41,450 bases of DNA from Nitrospira sp. (GTDB lineage Bacteria; Nitrospirota; Nitrospiria; Nitrospirales; UBA8639). Below, one piece after another: positions 20,525-40,532 of the stretch. The notes beneath the pieces are model-generated. The model searched no databases. It was not told where the DNA came from and was given only the letters and a program-made list of their open reading frames with translations. The position numbers and the translations under genes are program-made. The stretch covers positions 1-41,450 of the forward strand of contig JAPPLK010000033.1 in the NCBI GenBank assembly GCA_028819435.1, in the 5' to 3' direction. The stretch's first letter is position 1. The number at the start of each line of letters is the position of its first letter.

Positions 20525-21952
20525 TCAAGAAACAGGGGTGCAGGGAAGCAGTGGGAGAGATAGTGTAAAACAGGAGCCTTGCCCGAAGGTGCTGGCAACC
20601 TCAATGTCGCCGTGGTGCGCTTCGGCAATCCATTTGCAGATCGACAACCCAAGGCCGGTCCCTTTTTGTGCATGCGCGCGTGCGGCATCAGTTCGGTAAA
20701 ATCGGTCGAAGACGAGACGTTGTTCTTCCGGAGTCATACCGATCCCATGATCTCGAACGGTCACCCTGGCCATTCCGCGGTATTGCGTCAACCCGAGTTC
20801 CACGGTGCCGCGGGGCAAGGAATATTTGACGGCGTTGTCGACCAGGTTCAGGATCAGTTCCCGAAGCCGCCATTCATCTCCCGATACTCGGAGCGGTTCG
20901 ACTTGCCCCAAGGTCGTTGAGATTTGTTGCTCTTTGCCCAGGACCATGGCTTGCATGTAAATTTCCTGCACCAACGTATCGAGTTGTACGGGGTCTGATG
21001 CGACGTGCACTTCCCCGAGATCGGCGCGTGAGAGAAACATCAGTTCTTCCACAATGCGGCTCATCCGGTCGATTTCTTCCAGGTTACTTTCCAGGGCTTC
21101 CCGGTACACTTCCGGCGAACGGGGTTTTCGTAACGCCAGTTCGGTTTCACCCTTCGTGATTGTCAGCGGGGTGCGTAATTCGTGCGAGGCGTCGGCGCTG
21201 AATTGACGGATCTGTCGAATCGAGGTCTCAAGCCTGGCGATCATATCGTTAAACGTGGAAGCCAAGCGACCGATTTCGTCTTTCGACGTGGTTTCGATCC
21301 GTTGTGTGAGATCGCCTCCGGCAATCCGTTGAGCGGTCAGAGTGATATCGTCCACGGGTCGCAACGCCCGCCCAGCCAGGAACCAGCCCCCCAACATACT
21401 GACCATCACGGCTAACGGAGAGCCGATGAGCAAGACGAACACGAGGCGATCCAGCATTTCTTTCTTGGGCTGGAGAGATGTCCCGACCCGCAAAATATTG
21501 ACGAGGGTCTGTCCATGTCGAACCGGATACGAAAGCAAGCGTATGGGGATTTCGTCATGGAACCGGATGGTTTCGAAGACGGCCTGGCCTTGCAGGCTCG
21601 ATTGAAGGGCGGTTTGGCTGAGGGGAATGTTGCGGGTCTTGATGTTCGCGGACTGGAGGGTGACTTGTCCCTGCGGGCCGAAAATTTGGAAGAACTTGTC
21701 GATAAGGGCCAACTCGGGAAAGGCTTGCGCCAAGTCGTCCAACAACAGGAATGGCCCAAAGCGATGTTCTTCAAGCGACCGGGAGGCTGCCACGGCCGCT
21801 TCCTCCAGCGAACGGTCAATCTGGTCTTCCAACGCGCGGGCCACGACGACGTACAGCGCGGTCGCGAAGAGGAGCATGATCAAGGCCAAGCCCCCGCCAT
21901 ACCAGATGGTCAACCGGACGCGGATGGACGTGTTGGCCCGCGGGCTAGGCAT
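20525..21952 (-). CDS. HAMP-domain sensor histidine kinase (heavy-metal/CusS-like)
   Basis: This inner-membrane kinase of 475 residues has two membrane helices (about 15-37 and 170-194) bounding a periplasmic sensor domain. A HAMP linker, the dimerisation/phosphoacceptor helix with FSADASHELRTPLT (His257) and an ATPase domain follow, with the N-box ELILNLVDNAVKYS and G-boxes VRDHGIGM and GTGLGLSI. The layout fits the IrlB/CusS/CzcS group, but no metal efflux genes are nearby, so the signal cannot be inferred from homology. It overlaps the upstream response regulator by 8 bases and lies upstream of degP on the same strand. Confidence 0.9.
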   Translation of the reverse strand: MPSPRANTSIRVRLTIWYGGGLALIMLLFATALYVVVARALEDQIDRSLEEAAVAASRSLEEHRFGPFLLLDDLAQAFPELALIDKFFQIFGPQGQVTLQSANIKTRNIPLSQTALQSSLQGQAVFETIRFHDEIPIRLLSYPVRHGQTLVNILRVGTSLQPKKEMLDRLVFVLLIGSPLAVMVSMLGGWFLAGRALRPVDDITLTAQRIAGGDLTQRIETTSKDEIGRLASTFNDMIARLETSIRQIRQFSADASHELRTPLTITKGETELALRKPRSPEVYREALESNLEEIDRMSRIVEELMFLSRADLGEVHVASDPVQLDTLVQEIYMQAMVLGKEQQISTTLGQVEPLRVSGDEWRLRELILNLVDNAVKYSLPRGTVELGLTQYRGMARVTVRDHGIGMTPEEQRLVFDRFYRTDAARAHAQKGTGLGLSICKWIAEAHHGDIEVASTFGQGSCFTLSLPLLPCTPVS

Positions 21953-35530: not shown

Positions 35531-38500
35531 GTGGATCATCTGGTGAGCAACGACGAACGTCACTCCCCCCTTCGTGGATTACTGATTGCCCAGTTCTTTG
35601 GGGCGTTCAACGACAACGCGTGGAAGTTGATGGTCGCGTTGCTGGCCATCAAGCAGTTAGCCTCGCAGGTAGGCGCCGGCCCGGAATTCGAAGCCGCGTC
35701 CCAAGCCCAAACGACTCTCACGTTCGTCGTGTTCACCCTGCCGCTGATGCTCGTGTCCATCTTTGCCGGCGTCTTTTCAGATCGATTCAGCAAGCGATCC
35801 GTGATCGTGGTCATGAAGGTCGTTGAAGTGGCGTTGATGGCCTTGGGGACTTGGGCCCTTTACCATAATCCTTCCGGCGGCATCCTGCCGCTCATCGTGT
35901 TGGGTGGGATGGCCGTCCAAAGTGCGCTGTTCAGTCCGGCAAAGTACGGCATCCTGCCGGAGTTGCTTCCTCATGAACGATTGGCCGCAGGGAACGGGCA
36001 ACTGGAATTGTGGACCTTCCTGGCCATTATCGGAGGGACGGGGGCAGGGGGTGTTTTATTGCAAATGTCGGGCTCATCCCCGTGGCTGGGGGGAGCGGTG
36101 CTGCTGGTGTTTTCGGTCGCGGGGTGTGCCGCGTCCCTGATGGTCCCTGCCGTCCCGCGTGCGCGCGACAAAGGCGGGTTGGCCTCAACGCTTCAAGGGG
36201 CTTGGCAAGCCGTCCAAGCGGATCGCACGTTGCGATTGGGTATTTCCGGCAACGTCGGCTATTGGACCATCGCCAGTTTGGTGGGCCAGGACGTTCTCGT
36301 CTATGCCAAGGCCGTGTTGGGCCTGTCTGATTCCTTGTCGGGGCTGCCCTTGGCGACGTTCGGAATCGGGATTGGTCTCGGGTCGGTGTTGGCCGGGAAA
36401 CTTTCACATGCCAAAGTCGAAGTCGGGCAGATTCCATTGGGCGCGGTCGGGCTGATGCTGGGGTTGCTTCTGCTGGGCACGCTGTCTCCGGGATTGACGG
36501 GGACCTTGCTGGGTATGGGATGGCTGGGGTTTGCCAGCGGATTTATTCTGGTTCCGATCAACGCCTTAATCCAATGGCGTGCGCCGCAGGACCGACGAGG
36601 CGCCGTGATCGCGTTCGGAAATATTTTTGTATTCAGCGGCGTGGTGGTCGGGTCACTGGGGGCTTGGACGTTGTCCTCCGTTGGCCTTAACGCCGCCGGG
36701 ATCCTGAACGTCGCCGGGATTGCTGCAATAGCATTGACGGCGTGGGTCATTTGGCTCATGCCTGAGTCTTGCATTCGGATGACGTTGTTCCTTGTCACCC
36801 ACACCTTCTATCGGCTCCGGGTCGTCGGCCTGGAGCACGTGCCTGAACGAGGCGGTGCGTTGTTGCTGCCGAACCACGTGTCGTTTGTCGATGGATTGTT
36901 TCTGATCGCAAGCATCGATCGTCCGATCCGGTTTCTCGTTGACCGGCGTTACTACGAGATGCCTTTCCTGCACTGGGCGGCACGTATCATGGGAGTGATT
37001 CCCATTTCCGCCGGAGGATCGCCGCGGGAGATTCTCCATACTCTCCGTGAAGCCGGTCGCCGGCTGGATGAAGGTGAAGTCGTCTGCGTGTTTCCCGAAG
37101 GGCAGATTACTCGTACCGGCGGGCTCCTGTCGTTTCGCCAGGGGTTCGAACGGATCGTCAAGGGCCGGGAGACCCCCGTGATTCCCGTGCATCTTGATCG
37201 AGTATGGGGGAGCCTCTTCAGTTTTATCGGCGGAAAATTTCTGACGAAATGGCCTGACCGCGTACCTTATCCCGTCACGGTTTCATATGGTGCGCCCATG
37301 CCGTCGACCGTCACGGCGAGCGAAGTCCGGCAGCGAGTCCAGGAATTGGGCGAGGAAGCCTGGCGTTCTCGCAAGTCCGATAGGCGGCTGCTTCAGCATT
37401 CCTTTATTCGTGCGGCTCGCCGCCATCCCTTGCGTTTTGCCTTTGCCGATGCAACCCGTTCCAGGGTTTCAAGCCTGGAATCGCTTGTCGGCGCCGTGGC
37501 GTTGGCCCGGGCGCTCCGCCCGCACTGGATAAACCAGTACACCGTGGGCATTATGTTGCCTCCCAGTGTCGGAGGGGCCTTGGTCAATCTTGCCGCCACC
37601 CTGTCGGGACGCACCGTTGTCAATCTCAATTACACGGTCGGGCGAAACGGGATTGAGTCGATGGCCGGACAAGCCGGGCTCGAAACGATTGTGACGAGCC
37701 GCGTGTTTCTCGAAAAGGCCAACCTTGAAATGCCCGAAGGCATCAAGATCGTTTGGATCGAAGAGGTTCGCAAAACCATCGGGACATCAGAACGGATGAA
37801 AGCCTTGGCCATGGCCTTGGCTGCGCCCATTGGCATGCTGGAGAAAGGCATCGGTGCGATCCATCGTCCGCAACCGGACGATCTCGCGACGATCATTTTC
37901 AGCAGCGGCAGTACGGGAGAGCCGAAGGGGGTCATGCTGAGCCATTTCAACGTCGATGCCAACATTGAGGGAGTCGTACAGGTTTTTCACGTGGGTTCCG
38001 GCGACCGGGTGATGGGGATCCTGCCGTTCTTTCATTCCTTTGGTTACCTCGCGACGTTGTGGTTGGCCGTCAATCATGGCGTGGGCGTAGTGTATCATCC
38101 CACGCCGTTGGACCCGGTGGGCATCGGCGAACTCATGGAAAAACACCGGGTCACGATCCTGATCGCGACGCCGACCTTTCTGCAACTGTATTGGCGGCGG
38201 TGCATGCCGGAGCAATTCGGGTCGGTGCGCATCGTGTTGACCGGTGCCGAAAAATTATCGGAACGCCTGGCTGCCGCGTTTGAAGACAAATTCGGAATCC
38301 GGCCCTTCGAAGGATACGGGATAACGGAATGTGCTCCCGTGATTTCCGTGAATTGTCCGGACTTTCGTGCGGCGGGGTTTCATCAGCCGGCCTCGCGCCG
38401 TGGGACGGTCGGCCAGCCCTTGCCCGGTGTGTCCCTGCGTATCGTCGATCCCGATTCGTTTGAACCCCTTCCGGTGGGAACGGCCGGTATGTTGCTCGTC

Positions 38501-38956
38501 AAGGGGCCCAACGTCATGCAAGGGTACCTGAATCGTCCCGACCTGACGGACCAGGTCATGCACGATGGGTGGTACGTAACCGGCGACGTTGCCGTCCTGG
38601 ATGAAGACGGCTTCCTGACGATTACGGACCGGCTGTCTCGTTTTGCCAAAATCGGCGGGGAGATGGTACCTCATGGAAAGGTCGAAGAAGCACTACAGCA
38701 GGCCGTCGAATCCGACGAGCAGGTATTTGCCGTGACGTCCATCCCCGATGAAAAAAAGGGGGAACAATTGGCCGTGCTCCATACACTCGATGAATCCGTT
38801 ATCCCCGGCGTGTTGGAAAAAATCGCGGCGAGCGGGTTGCCGAATTTATTCATTCCCCGAAAAGACGCCTTCATCAAAGTCGATCAGCTTCCGGTGCTGG
38901 GGACGGGGAAGTTGGATCTCCGTGCCCTGAAGCAAGTCGCATTGGAGCGGCTCTAA
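35531..38956 (+). CDS. aas: LplT-PlsC-acyl-ACP synthetase fusion (Aas-type)
   Basis: This 1141-residue inner-membrane protein combines three functions. Residues 10-415 form an MFS lysophospholipid flippase domain like LplT (AQFFGAFNDNAWKLMVALLA, FSPAKYGILPELLPHERLAA). Residues 425-620 are a PlsC acyltransferase with NHVSFVDG (HX4D) and FPEGQITRTG. The rest is an acyl-AMP ligase with IIFSSGSTGEPKGVMLS, EGYGITECAPVIS, YVTGDVAVLDEDGF and the C-terminal Lys in LGTGKLD. Together they bring lysophospholipids inward and re-acylate them with fatty acid loaded on ACP. In E. coli LplT and Aas are separate genes. The start is GTG 35531; GTG 35543 is possible. Confidence 0.92.
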   Translation: MDHLVSNDERHSPLRGLLIAQFFGAFNDNAWKLMVALLAIKQLASQVGAGPEFEAASQAQTTLTFVVFTLPLMLVSIFAGVFSDRFSKRSVIVVMKVVEVALMALGTWALYHNPSGGILPLIVLGGMAVQSALFSPAKYGILPELLPHERLAAGNGQLELWTFLAIIGGTGAGGVLLQMSGSSPWLGGAVLLVFSVAGCAASLMVPAVPRARDKGGLASTLQGAWQAVQADRTLRLGISGNVGYWTIASLVGQDVLVYAKAVLGLSDSLSGLPLATFGIGIGLGSVLAGKLSHAKVEVGQIPLGAVGLMLGLLLLGTLSPGLTGTLLGMGWLGFASGFILVPINALIQWRAPQDRRGAVIAFGNIFVFSGVVVGSLGAWTLSSVGLNAAGILNVAGIAAIALTAWVIWLMPESCIRMTLFLVTHTFYRLRVVGLEHVPERGGALLLPNHVSFVDGLFLIASIDRPIRFLVDRRYYEMPFLHWAARIMGVIPISAGGSPREILHTLREAGRRLDEGEVVCVFPEGQITRTGGLLSFRQGFERIVKGRETPVIPVHLDRVWGSLFSFIGGKFLTKWPDRVPYPVTVSYGAPMPSTVTASEVRQRVQELGEEAWRSRKSDRRLLQHSFIRAARRHPLRFAFADATRSRVSSLESLVGAVALARALRPHWINQYTVGIMLPPSVGGALVNLAATLSGRTVVNLNYTVGRNGIESMAGQAGLETIVTSRVFLEKANLEMPEGIKIVWIEEVRKTIGTSERMKALAMALAAPIGMLEKGIGAIHRPQPDDLATIIFSSGSTGEPKGVMLSHFNVDANIEGVVQVFHVGSGDRVMGILPFFHSFGYLATLWLAVNHGVGVVYHPTPLDPVGIGELMEKHRVTILIATPTFLQLYWRRCMPEQFGSVRIVLTGAEKLSERLAAAFEDKFGIRPFEGYGITECAPVISVNCPDFRAAGFHQPASRRGTVGQPLPGVSLRIVDPDSFEPLPVGTAGMLLVKGPNVMQGYLNRPDLTDQVMHDGWYVTGDVAVLDEDGFLTITDRLSRFAKIGGEMVPHGKVEEALQQAVESDEQVFAVTSIPDEKKGEQLAVLHTLDESVIPGVLEKIAASGLPNLFIPRKDAFIKVDQLPVLGTGKLDLRALKQVALERL

Positions 38957-39455: not shown

Positions 39456-40500
39456 TCATTCCATAGAGGCCCCGTTGCCACCAGGAGGCGTGATCGTGGC
39501 GGGCGTCAGCGCGTCGAAGATGCCCGTAAACCGCCCCTGTGAGCCGTCGTCTTCGGCGAAATGGACATCCGTGGTGCCGATCACGCGACGGGGGTTGCCG
39601 TCGACATCCGGCACGTTCGAGAACTGTCCCTGCCACGTTCCCGCACTGGTCGTGATGGCGCGGTCGGGATGTGTCACGGTAATGGCGGTATCCGCAAAGG
39701 CCCCATTGACACCAAACGAGGCTTCAAAGTGCAGATCGTAGTCGGTCGGTAACGCCTCAGGATCGTCTCCCTGCCACGGCACGGCTGGAAAGAGGTGGCG
39801 ACCGGGTGCGGTCTCGATCTGGCCGACACACCCGATGCACCCAGTGAGGCGGTTTTGGTCGAAGTCGGCGGTCAACGAGACCTGTCCCGCAAATTCCGTG
39901 TACTCGGAGGAATCGGCCAACTCGCCCCACGCGCGGCCGTATTGGTACGTGTACAAGCCGCCAGCCCCTCCGACGTAGGTGGCCGTACCCGTGAGAGGCA
40001 GGTCTGGCGGTCTCGCGGGGTTGAGTTCCGGGCCATCAAGAAAGACACCGCGCGTGGCGGACTGGAACGCCCAATAGGGAACATCAGGTGGATAGATCAG
40101 CCACCATCCCGCCGCGAGGTAGTCGGTCGCGTCGTCGTCATTCCACGAAGCAAGGGCGTAGAGTAAAACCCTGCCGTCATAGTGGTTGTCCACGAGTAAC
40201 CATTCGCGGTTGGAATGATTGGGTTGCACGGGGCGGGGAAGATACAGCCCCCACGACCGTTCCAGGTGTCGGACTGTATCGAGAGTGCGGGTCTGGCCGT
40301 CAGGGTAGCGCACGTCGATACTGAGGATGCCATCGGCGAAGGTCGTCCCCGTCCGAAACGGTTGGGGGGGGGGTGGGCGTGAGGGTGGGGATTGGGATTG
40401 GAGGAAGCAACTCGGTACTCCTGAGCGAACAGCCCACCGTCAGCGAAAGGAAAAAGAGGGTCATCAGGGTTGCGAGTCTCACGGAGAGCACTTGTAACAA
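39456..40500 (-). CDS. TbpB-like surface lipoprotein, out of frame at a C10 tract
   Basis: The N-terminal frame (start TTG 40500, or GTG 40491 or 40482) encodes a lipoprotein signal, RLATLMTLFFLSLTVGC, with lipobox LTVGC, then a Pro/Thr-rich linker PIPIPTLTPTPPP. At ten C's on the coding strand (G10 at 40364-40373) the frame is lost. Nine or twelve C's would continue into QPFRTGTTFADGILSIDVRY and the long downstream frame ending at 39456. That part has the TbpB beta-barrel pattern: LPLTGTATYVGGAGGLYTYQ, FAGQVSLTADFDQNRLTGCI, GTWQGQF, GTTDVHFAEDDGSQGRFTGI. Such lipoproteins bind ligands at the cell surface. The tract suggests phase variation, or a homopolymer sequencing error. Confidence 0.72.
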
Positions 40501-40532
40501 ATGGGCCGGGAGATGTCAAAGCTGGGACTTTT

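Follow-up and report, generated by a model that had tools for sequence, protein, structure and literature searches.

A run of ten cytosines in the proline-rich linker of a putative surface lipoprotein gene stands exactly at the point where the gene changes reading frame. The best single reading of this arrangement, to which we give about an even chance, is homopolymer phase variation at a contingency locus of the HpuA type. The 41,450-nucleotide stretch of DNA analysed, henceforth referred to as the window, corresponds to contig 29 in a draft assembly (G000) of 2.62 Mb and 114 contigs. The host, an uncultured nitrite oxidiser, belongs to GTDB genus 'bin75' (Ca. Nitrosymbion), whose genomes include 'Nitrospira sp. 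bin75' (G006), CO36405bin_1 (G001), SB0662_bin_26 (G003) and jk18x22bins.71 (G012).

The tract (40364..40373) reads G10 on the forward strand and C10 on the coding (-) strand. It is the only C/G run of at least 8 in the window, where 0.25 runs of at least 10 are expected under a first-order model. A likely promoter, recognised by consensus reading, lies upstream at 40491..40519 (-), with TTGACA at 40519-40514, a 17-nt spacer and TACAAG at 40496-40491; the -35 stretch, TTGACATCTCCCGGC, is also present upstream of homologues L036 and L039. The lipoprotein start was placed at GTG 40482 by comparison with L036, the closest homologue by signal peptide, which shares both the signal peptide and the promoter stretch and starts with ATG. 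Read from this GTG, the C10 allele encodes a frame of 60 codons (40300..40482, -), VRLATLMTLFFLSLTVGC-SLRSTELLPPIPIPTLTPTPPP, which ends in a stop at 40300. The frame contains the lipoprotein signal peptide VRLATLMTLFFLSLTVGC (40432..40482, -; 17 residues before the lipobox cysteine, assigned by eye), the lipobox LTVGC with its Cys at residue 18, and the Pro-rich linker, leaving 43 residues after cleavage. The tract lies 36.3 codons from the start codon. The barrel part (39456..40313, -; 285 aa counted from 40313, where the first in-frame start codon lies) is read in another frame, open through the C10 tract and without internal stops to its end at 39456.

The sequence thus bears out the preliminary description, which had placed the signal peptide and Pro-rich linker in one frame and the barrel in another, with the junction at C10. 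Scripted frame arithmetic agrees with its further statement that nine or twelve C's restore the full protein: C9 and C12 join the two frames, and C8, C10 and C11 do not. Both features expected of a contingency gene at the DNA level are present, since the run is long enough to slip (at least 8 for a C/G run) and is sited such that a change in its length toggles the product.

In the phase-variation reading, DNA polymerase slippage on the linker poly-C run would add or remove C's in vivo. Frame-keeping lengths (9 or 12) would give the complete lipoprotein, and one of the genome's two Slam proteins would presumably bring it to the outer surface, while other lengths, the consensus C10 included, would give the 43-residue secreted stub (OFF). 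The linker would accept any number of prolines, so that slippage would otherwise be harmless. Switching would presumably be reversible and beneficial, through escape from antigenic, phage or host recognition.

The barrel was compared at the level of fold because a sequence-profile search of the PDB gave no match up to E 1. With an alignment of 23 family members as input, AlphaFold2 modelled the barrel ORF at a mean pLDDT of 80 and a pTM of 0.80. Meningococcal fHbp ranked first by VIA-align (Z 14.2, 162 residues, 2.7 Å), followed by NHBA (Z 13.5) and by hemophilins and TbpB lobes (Z about 12); Foldseek E-values were modest (3.6e-4 for NHBA). The protein scored under the cut-offs of both Pfam PF01298 (TbpB_B_D; E=0.076, 14 of 26 bits) and NCBIfam slam_lipo (NF041636; E=0.0019, 18.5 of 80 bits) and is therefore named Slam-cargo-like and kept out of both models. 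The earlier label 'TbpB-like' holds for the fold, to which the sequence models give weak agreement. The accompanying description of a surface lipoprotein with this fold is supported by the model, the structural matches and the presence of Slam in the genome, with surface display as a prediction; the lipobox Cys seen in the window gene was also found by eye in its homologues.

Two Slam genes (PF04575) are present in the genome, on contigs C7 and C22, neither of them beside the gene in the window; on C7, a TbpB-like lipoprotein gene lies directly 5' of the Slam gene. Across the genus, Slam was detected in 10/14 genomes, including both single-contig ones (L186-L195), and in 0/14 controls. PF01298 matches were obtained in 12 of the 14 genus genomes, above the cut-off in 11, again with 0/14 controls. 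Altogether, TbpB-like genes occupy 81 gene places in the genus, counted from three merged searches plus one extra found near a tract. The available excerpts of three Slam surveys (PMC5449769, PMC8406197, PMC12282271), which discuss Proteobacteria, do not contain the string 'Nitrospir', and a title and abstract search of the open-access literature combining 'Nitrospir' and Slam under its full name returned no paper on the subject.

The C10 tract was absent from all 12 homologues compared (nine loci plus C19, G003:C49:3189 and G004:C30; the region is missing from L041, a 13th locus), and the longest C run at the site was C5. The homologues have LTPVPQPFRT at this position, coded by GTCCCCCAACCG or similar, where the window gene has ACCCCCCCCCCAACCG, so that growth of the run from C4-C5 in an ancestor is the simplest account. 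Inheritance of the tract from an ancestor was rejected for the sampled species. Retention of a tract in related species, which would lend support to a contingency gene, was seen in none of these 12 homologues, and the tract thus does not appear to be a conserved device. The proposal of an on/off switch therefore fared unevenly: the anatomy fits and the barrel is under selection, but the relatives carry short C runs in 12/12 cases, in line with the refuting condition named in the preliminary description. These relatives are other species or paralogues, not isolates of the same species.

Over the barrel, dN/dS was 0.17-0.34 at a dS of 0.43-1.19 (NG86, window gene against 10 homologues), inside the range of the intact copies (0.14-0.42 among the other homologues). 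Selection on the ON form, as expected of a contingency gene, was thus found over all 10 pairs. Together with the lack of internal stops, these values indicate that the barrel was translated until very recently; it was selected as a protein through almost all its history, the frame break being recent or intermittent. An old pseudogene was rejected on the same dN/dS values.

A fresh, unselected loss is unlikely but carries some weight. Here, chance lengthening of a short C run would have destroyed the frame, and a pseudogene would now be under way with no consequential switching back. The tract occurs in one species only, the GTG start is weaker, and the window copy could be dispensable given that G000:C19 holds an intact paralogue with 76% identity. 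Decay is also common in the family: the G004:C30 orthologue is broken at G5, and others (G006:C71, G006:C86 and G000:C67) are broken at non-repeat sites. By locus, lipoprotein genes broken without a run comprise L017, L129, L113 and L132, as well as L133 and L102 with several breaks each, and L131 is broken by an in-frame stop; such breaks also speak against a switch. A loss of this kind is, however, at odds with 285 codons free of any other lesion at a normal dN/dS, and chance does not account for the placement of three of the eight long runs in the genome at the TbpB-like lipoprotein family, as detailed below.

The window gene is flanked by a DUF2007 gene and a gene of the poly(A) polymerase/CCA-adding type. 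None of these, nor the MFS/acyltransferase gene, was found at the homologue loci examined, which indicates that the gene is sited differently in different genomes; a conserved operon context was rejected on this basis. In the window, a single frame of 1141 aa (35531-38956) contains an MFS domain together with an acyltransferase and an AMP-binding enzyme. Lipoprotein relatives with 66-74% identity (L037-L040) were also observed in bins that carry the labels Nitrospinota, Silicimonas and 'bacterium', and TTGACATCTCCCGGC of the promoter recurs in the Nitrospinae bin (L039); these relatives reflect either horizontal transfer between symbionts or misbinning.

The host genome contains 8 internal C/G runs of at least 10 and about 22 of at least 9 (the latter hand-compiled, with three contig-end runs left out and one counted run 108 nt from a contig end), and runs of this kind occur in 14/14 genus genomes. 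A C10 run as such is not rare in the genome; its place is what is unusual. Three of the 8 runs are associated with TbpB-like lipoprotein genes, two inside such genes and one 96 nt upstream (expected 0.07, P 4e-5, with 14 such genes at 1.65 kb each). The same holds for 3/22 of the runs of at least 9 (expected 0.19, P 9e-4) and for 4/84 runs across the genus (0.33 expected, P 4e-4), in tests that are post hoc, chosen once cases were known, and for a class of lipoproteins whose Gly/Pro-rich segments favour C/G runs. A contig-end locus (G012:C41) and two runs further upstream of TbpB-like genes (G011, G013) were left out of the enrichment count.

Both coding tracts of at least 9 in lipoprotein genes of the host genome are out of frame, while 6/6 others examined are in frame (Fisher P=0.036 within this genome). 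Across the genus, out-of-frame coding tracts were found in the window gene, in a second lipoprotein gene (C74), in dxs of G006 and in a repeat-rich G010 gene (L235), and 10 others are in frame (L124 by open frame only). With the two lipoproteins only, the genus comparison gives a Fisher P of about 0.07 by hand calculation. A value of P=0.011, obtained by treating L235 as a surface protein, was discarded as unjustified, L235 being without any Pfam match. Long coding runs remain in frame in FtsZ, RpiA, YicC, aminotransferase, VTT, MPAB and permease genes.

The frame comparison also bears on sequencing or assembly error in the metagenome bin, with a true length of C9 or shorter and an intact gene, which we regard as quite unlikely. 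Support for an error comes from the draft state of the assembly (114 contigs), from C23 and C18 runs at one contig end of the same genome, and from dxs of the sister MAG G006 (G006:C84:33393, L173), which is interrupted at G13 with garbled flanking codons although both halves match DXP synthase. Since dxs is normally essential, this break is probably an assembly error in the bin75 record, and it illustrates that such breaks in MAGs can be artefacts. The clean window flanks, by contrast, can be aligned with homologues on either side, and coding runs of 9-11 leave six non-lipoprotein reading frames of this genome intact.

Programmed or tolerated slippage, in which RNA polymerase or the ribosome would slip on C10 such that some full-length lipoprotein is always made, is very improbable. 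Transcription can slip on runs of 10, and the available excerpt of PMC2831843 cites such slippage for Buchnera poly-A runs. Slippage of this type would explain the intact barrel behind the frame break. The tract is not conserved, however, and transcriptional slippage is lower on G/C runs than on A/T runs.

Long runs were found at several further TbpB-like lipoprotein genes. The second such gene of the host genome (G000:C74, position 11042) is out of frame at a G10 tract, which stands in place of about 19 codons present in orthologues L143 and L144; the break may therefore be a deletion or a misassembly. A third (G000:C89, position 83758) has a C11 run 96 nt before its start, which shows no fit between promoter hexamers and is absent from the upstream region of relative L140. 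In the sister species, a C13 run (G004:C31:6583, in locus L208, 6573-6600) lies exactly between TTGACT (-35) and TAAAAT (-10). A TbpB-like lipoprotein of 348 aa starts 53 nt further on, and this gene is a candidate for promoter-type phase variation. In the contig-end locus G012:C41, the signal peptide is followed directly by G10 and C18 runs, and the body is read in a different frame.

A promoter-spacer scan gave 4/188 strand tests with at most 2 mismatches against 0.16 expected, the scan having been run after one case was known and one of the four (L240) lying in an inverted-repeat-like stretch. The tract-in-promoter pattern occurred at 3 places in the 14 genomes and the reversed pattern at 0. 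One of the three is a C8 run before a gene that we take to be ilvE-like, possibly a chance match. A C9 run was also observed, at position 21525 of G000:C4, between TTGACA and TTTAAA before a RiPP precursor (G000:C4:21201-21543, -; L257/L072) of 89 aa, with an NHLP leader (TIGR03793, 63.5 bits) and the ending GRCCC; by eye, an ABC-transporter-like frame lies upstream. This run is absent from the 89%-identical orthologue L264 in G001. In several genomes of the genus (L276, L277, L279, L281, L283), NHLP-leader-like stretches were additionally noted inside open frames 454-595 aa long.

Tentatively, and with a good deal of doubt, these loci could belong to a set of recent, fast-turnover poly-C/G switches in sponge symbionts of the Ca. 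Nitrosymbion type. The set would comprise coding switches (the window gene, G000:C74 and perhaps G012:C41) and promoter switches (G004:C31 and perhaps G000:C89) on Slam-type lipoproteins, together with the RiPP precursor promoter at G000:C4. If so, a vertically inherited nitrifier would gain surface diversity of the kind known in mucosal pathogens.

The preliminary description had considered a switch of this kind unexpected in an environmental nitrifier, and this was its weak part. In the available excerpt of PMC11812461, GTDB genus bin75 is named Ca. Nitrosymbion and comprises 12 MAGs, most from sponges, one from a coral and two from cold seeps, with vertical transmission indicated for one species; the sponge Aplysina aerophoba is the source of bin75 itself (PMC5649159, available excerpt). 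Because the genus consists mostly of sponge symbionts, host contact would be as natural a driver of switching as the phage or predator escape put forward there. Confirmation of mixed tract lengths would extend phase variation of Slam-type lipoproteins to a nitrite-oxidising animal symbiont and to the Nitrospirota, and would make surface variation of sponge symbionts against phagocytosis, phage or rivals testable. By title and abstract in the open-access literature, no paper was found on phase variation in Nitrospirota or on sponges with phase variation or repeats. The mechanism is known; the taxon and the gene are new.

Among known systems, the Slam/T11SS cargo proteins fHbp, NHBA and TbpB resemble the window protein in fold (Z 14.2, 13.5 and about 12) and in their lipobox signal peptide, but differ in sequence (12-20% identity), the window protein lying under the PF01298 and NF041636 cut-offs. 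Neisseria PorA, for which the available excerpt of PMC3639595 describes promoter poly-G phase variation, is similar to the sister-species gene with C13 between -35 and -10 (G004:C31) and not to the window gene, whose tract lies within the coding frame. HpuA of Neisseria is a lipoprotein carried by Slam2 (PMC7857515), and a poly-G run within the ORF switches it, ON at 4, 7, 10 and 13 and otherwise OFF (PMC3786947), as given in the available excerpts. The window gene differs from hpuA in belonging to a Nitrospirota symbiont, in having poly-C within a Pro-rich linker, in being a putative switch, and in adjoining the DUF2007 and poly(A) polymerase/CCA-adding type genes rather than an hpuB-like partner. 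It resembles HpuA in being a lipoprotein of the Slam cargo type with a homopolymer run inside its reading frame.
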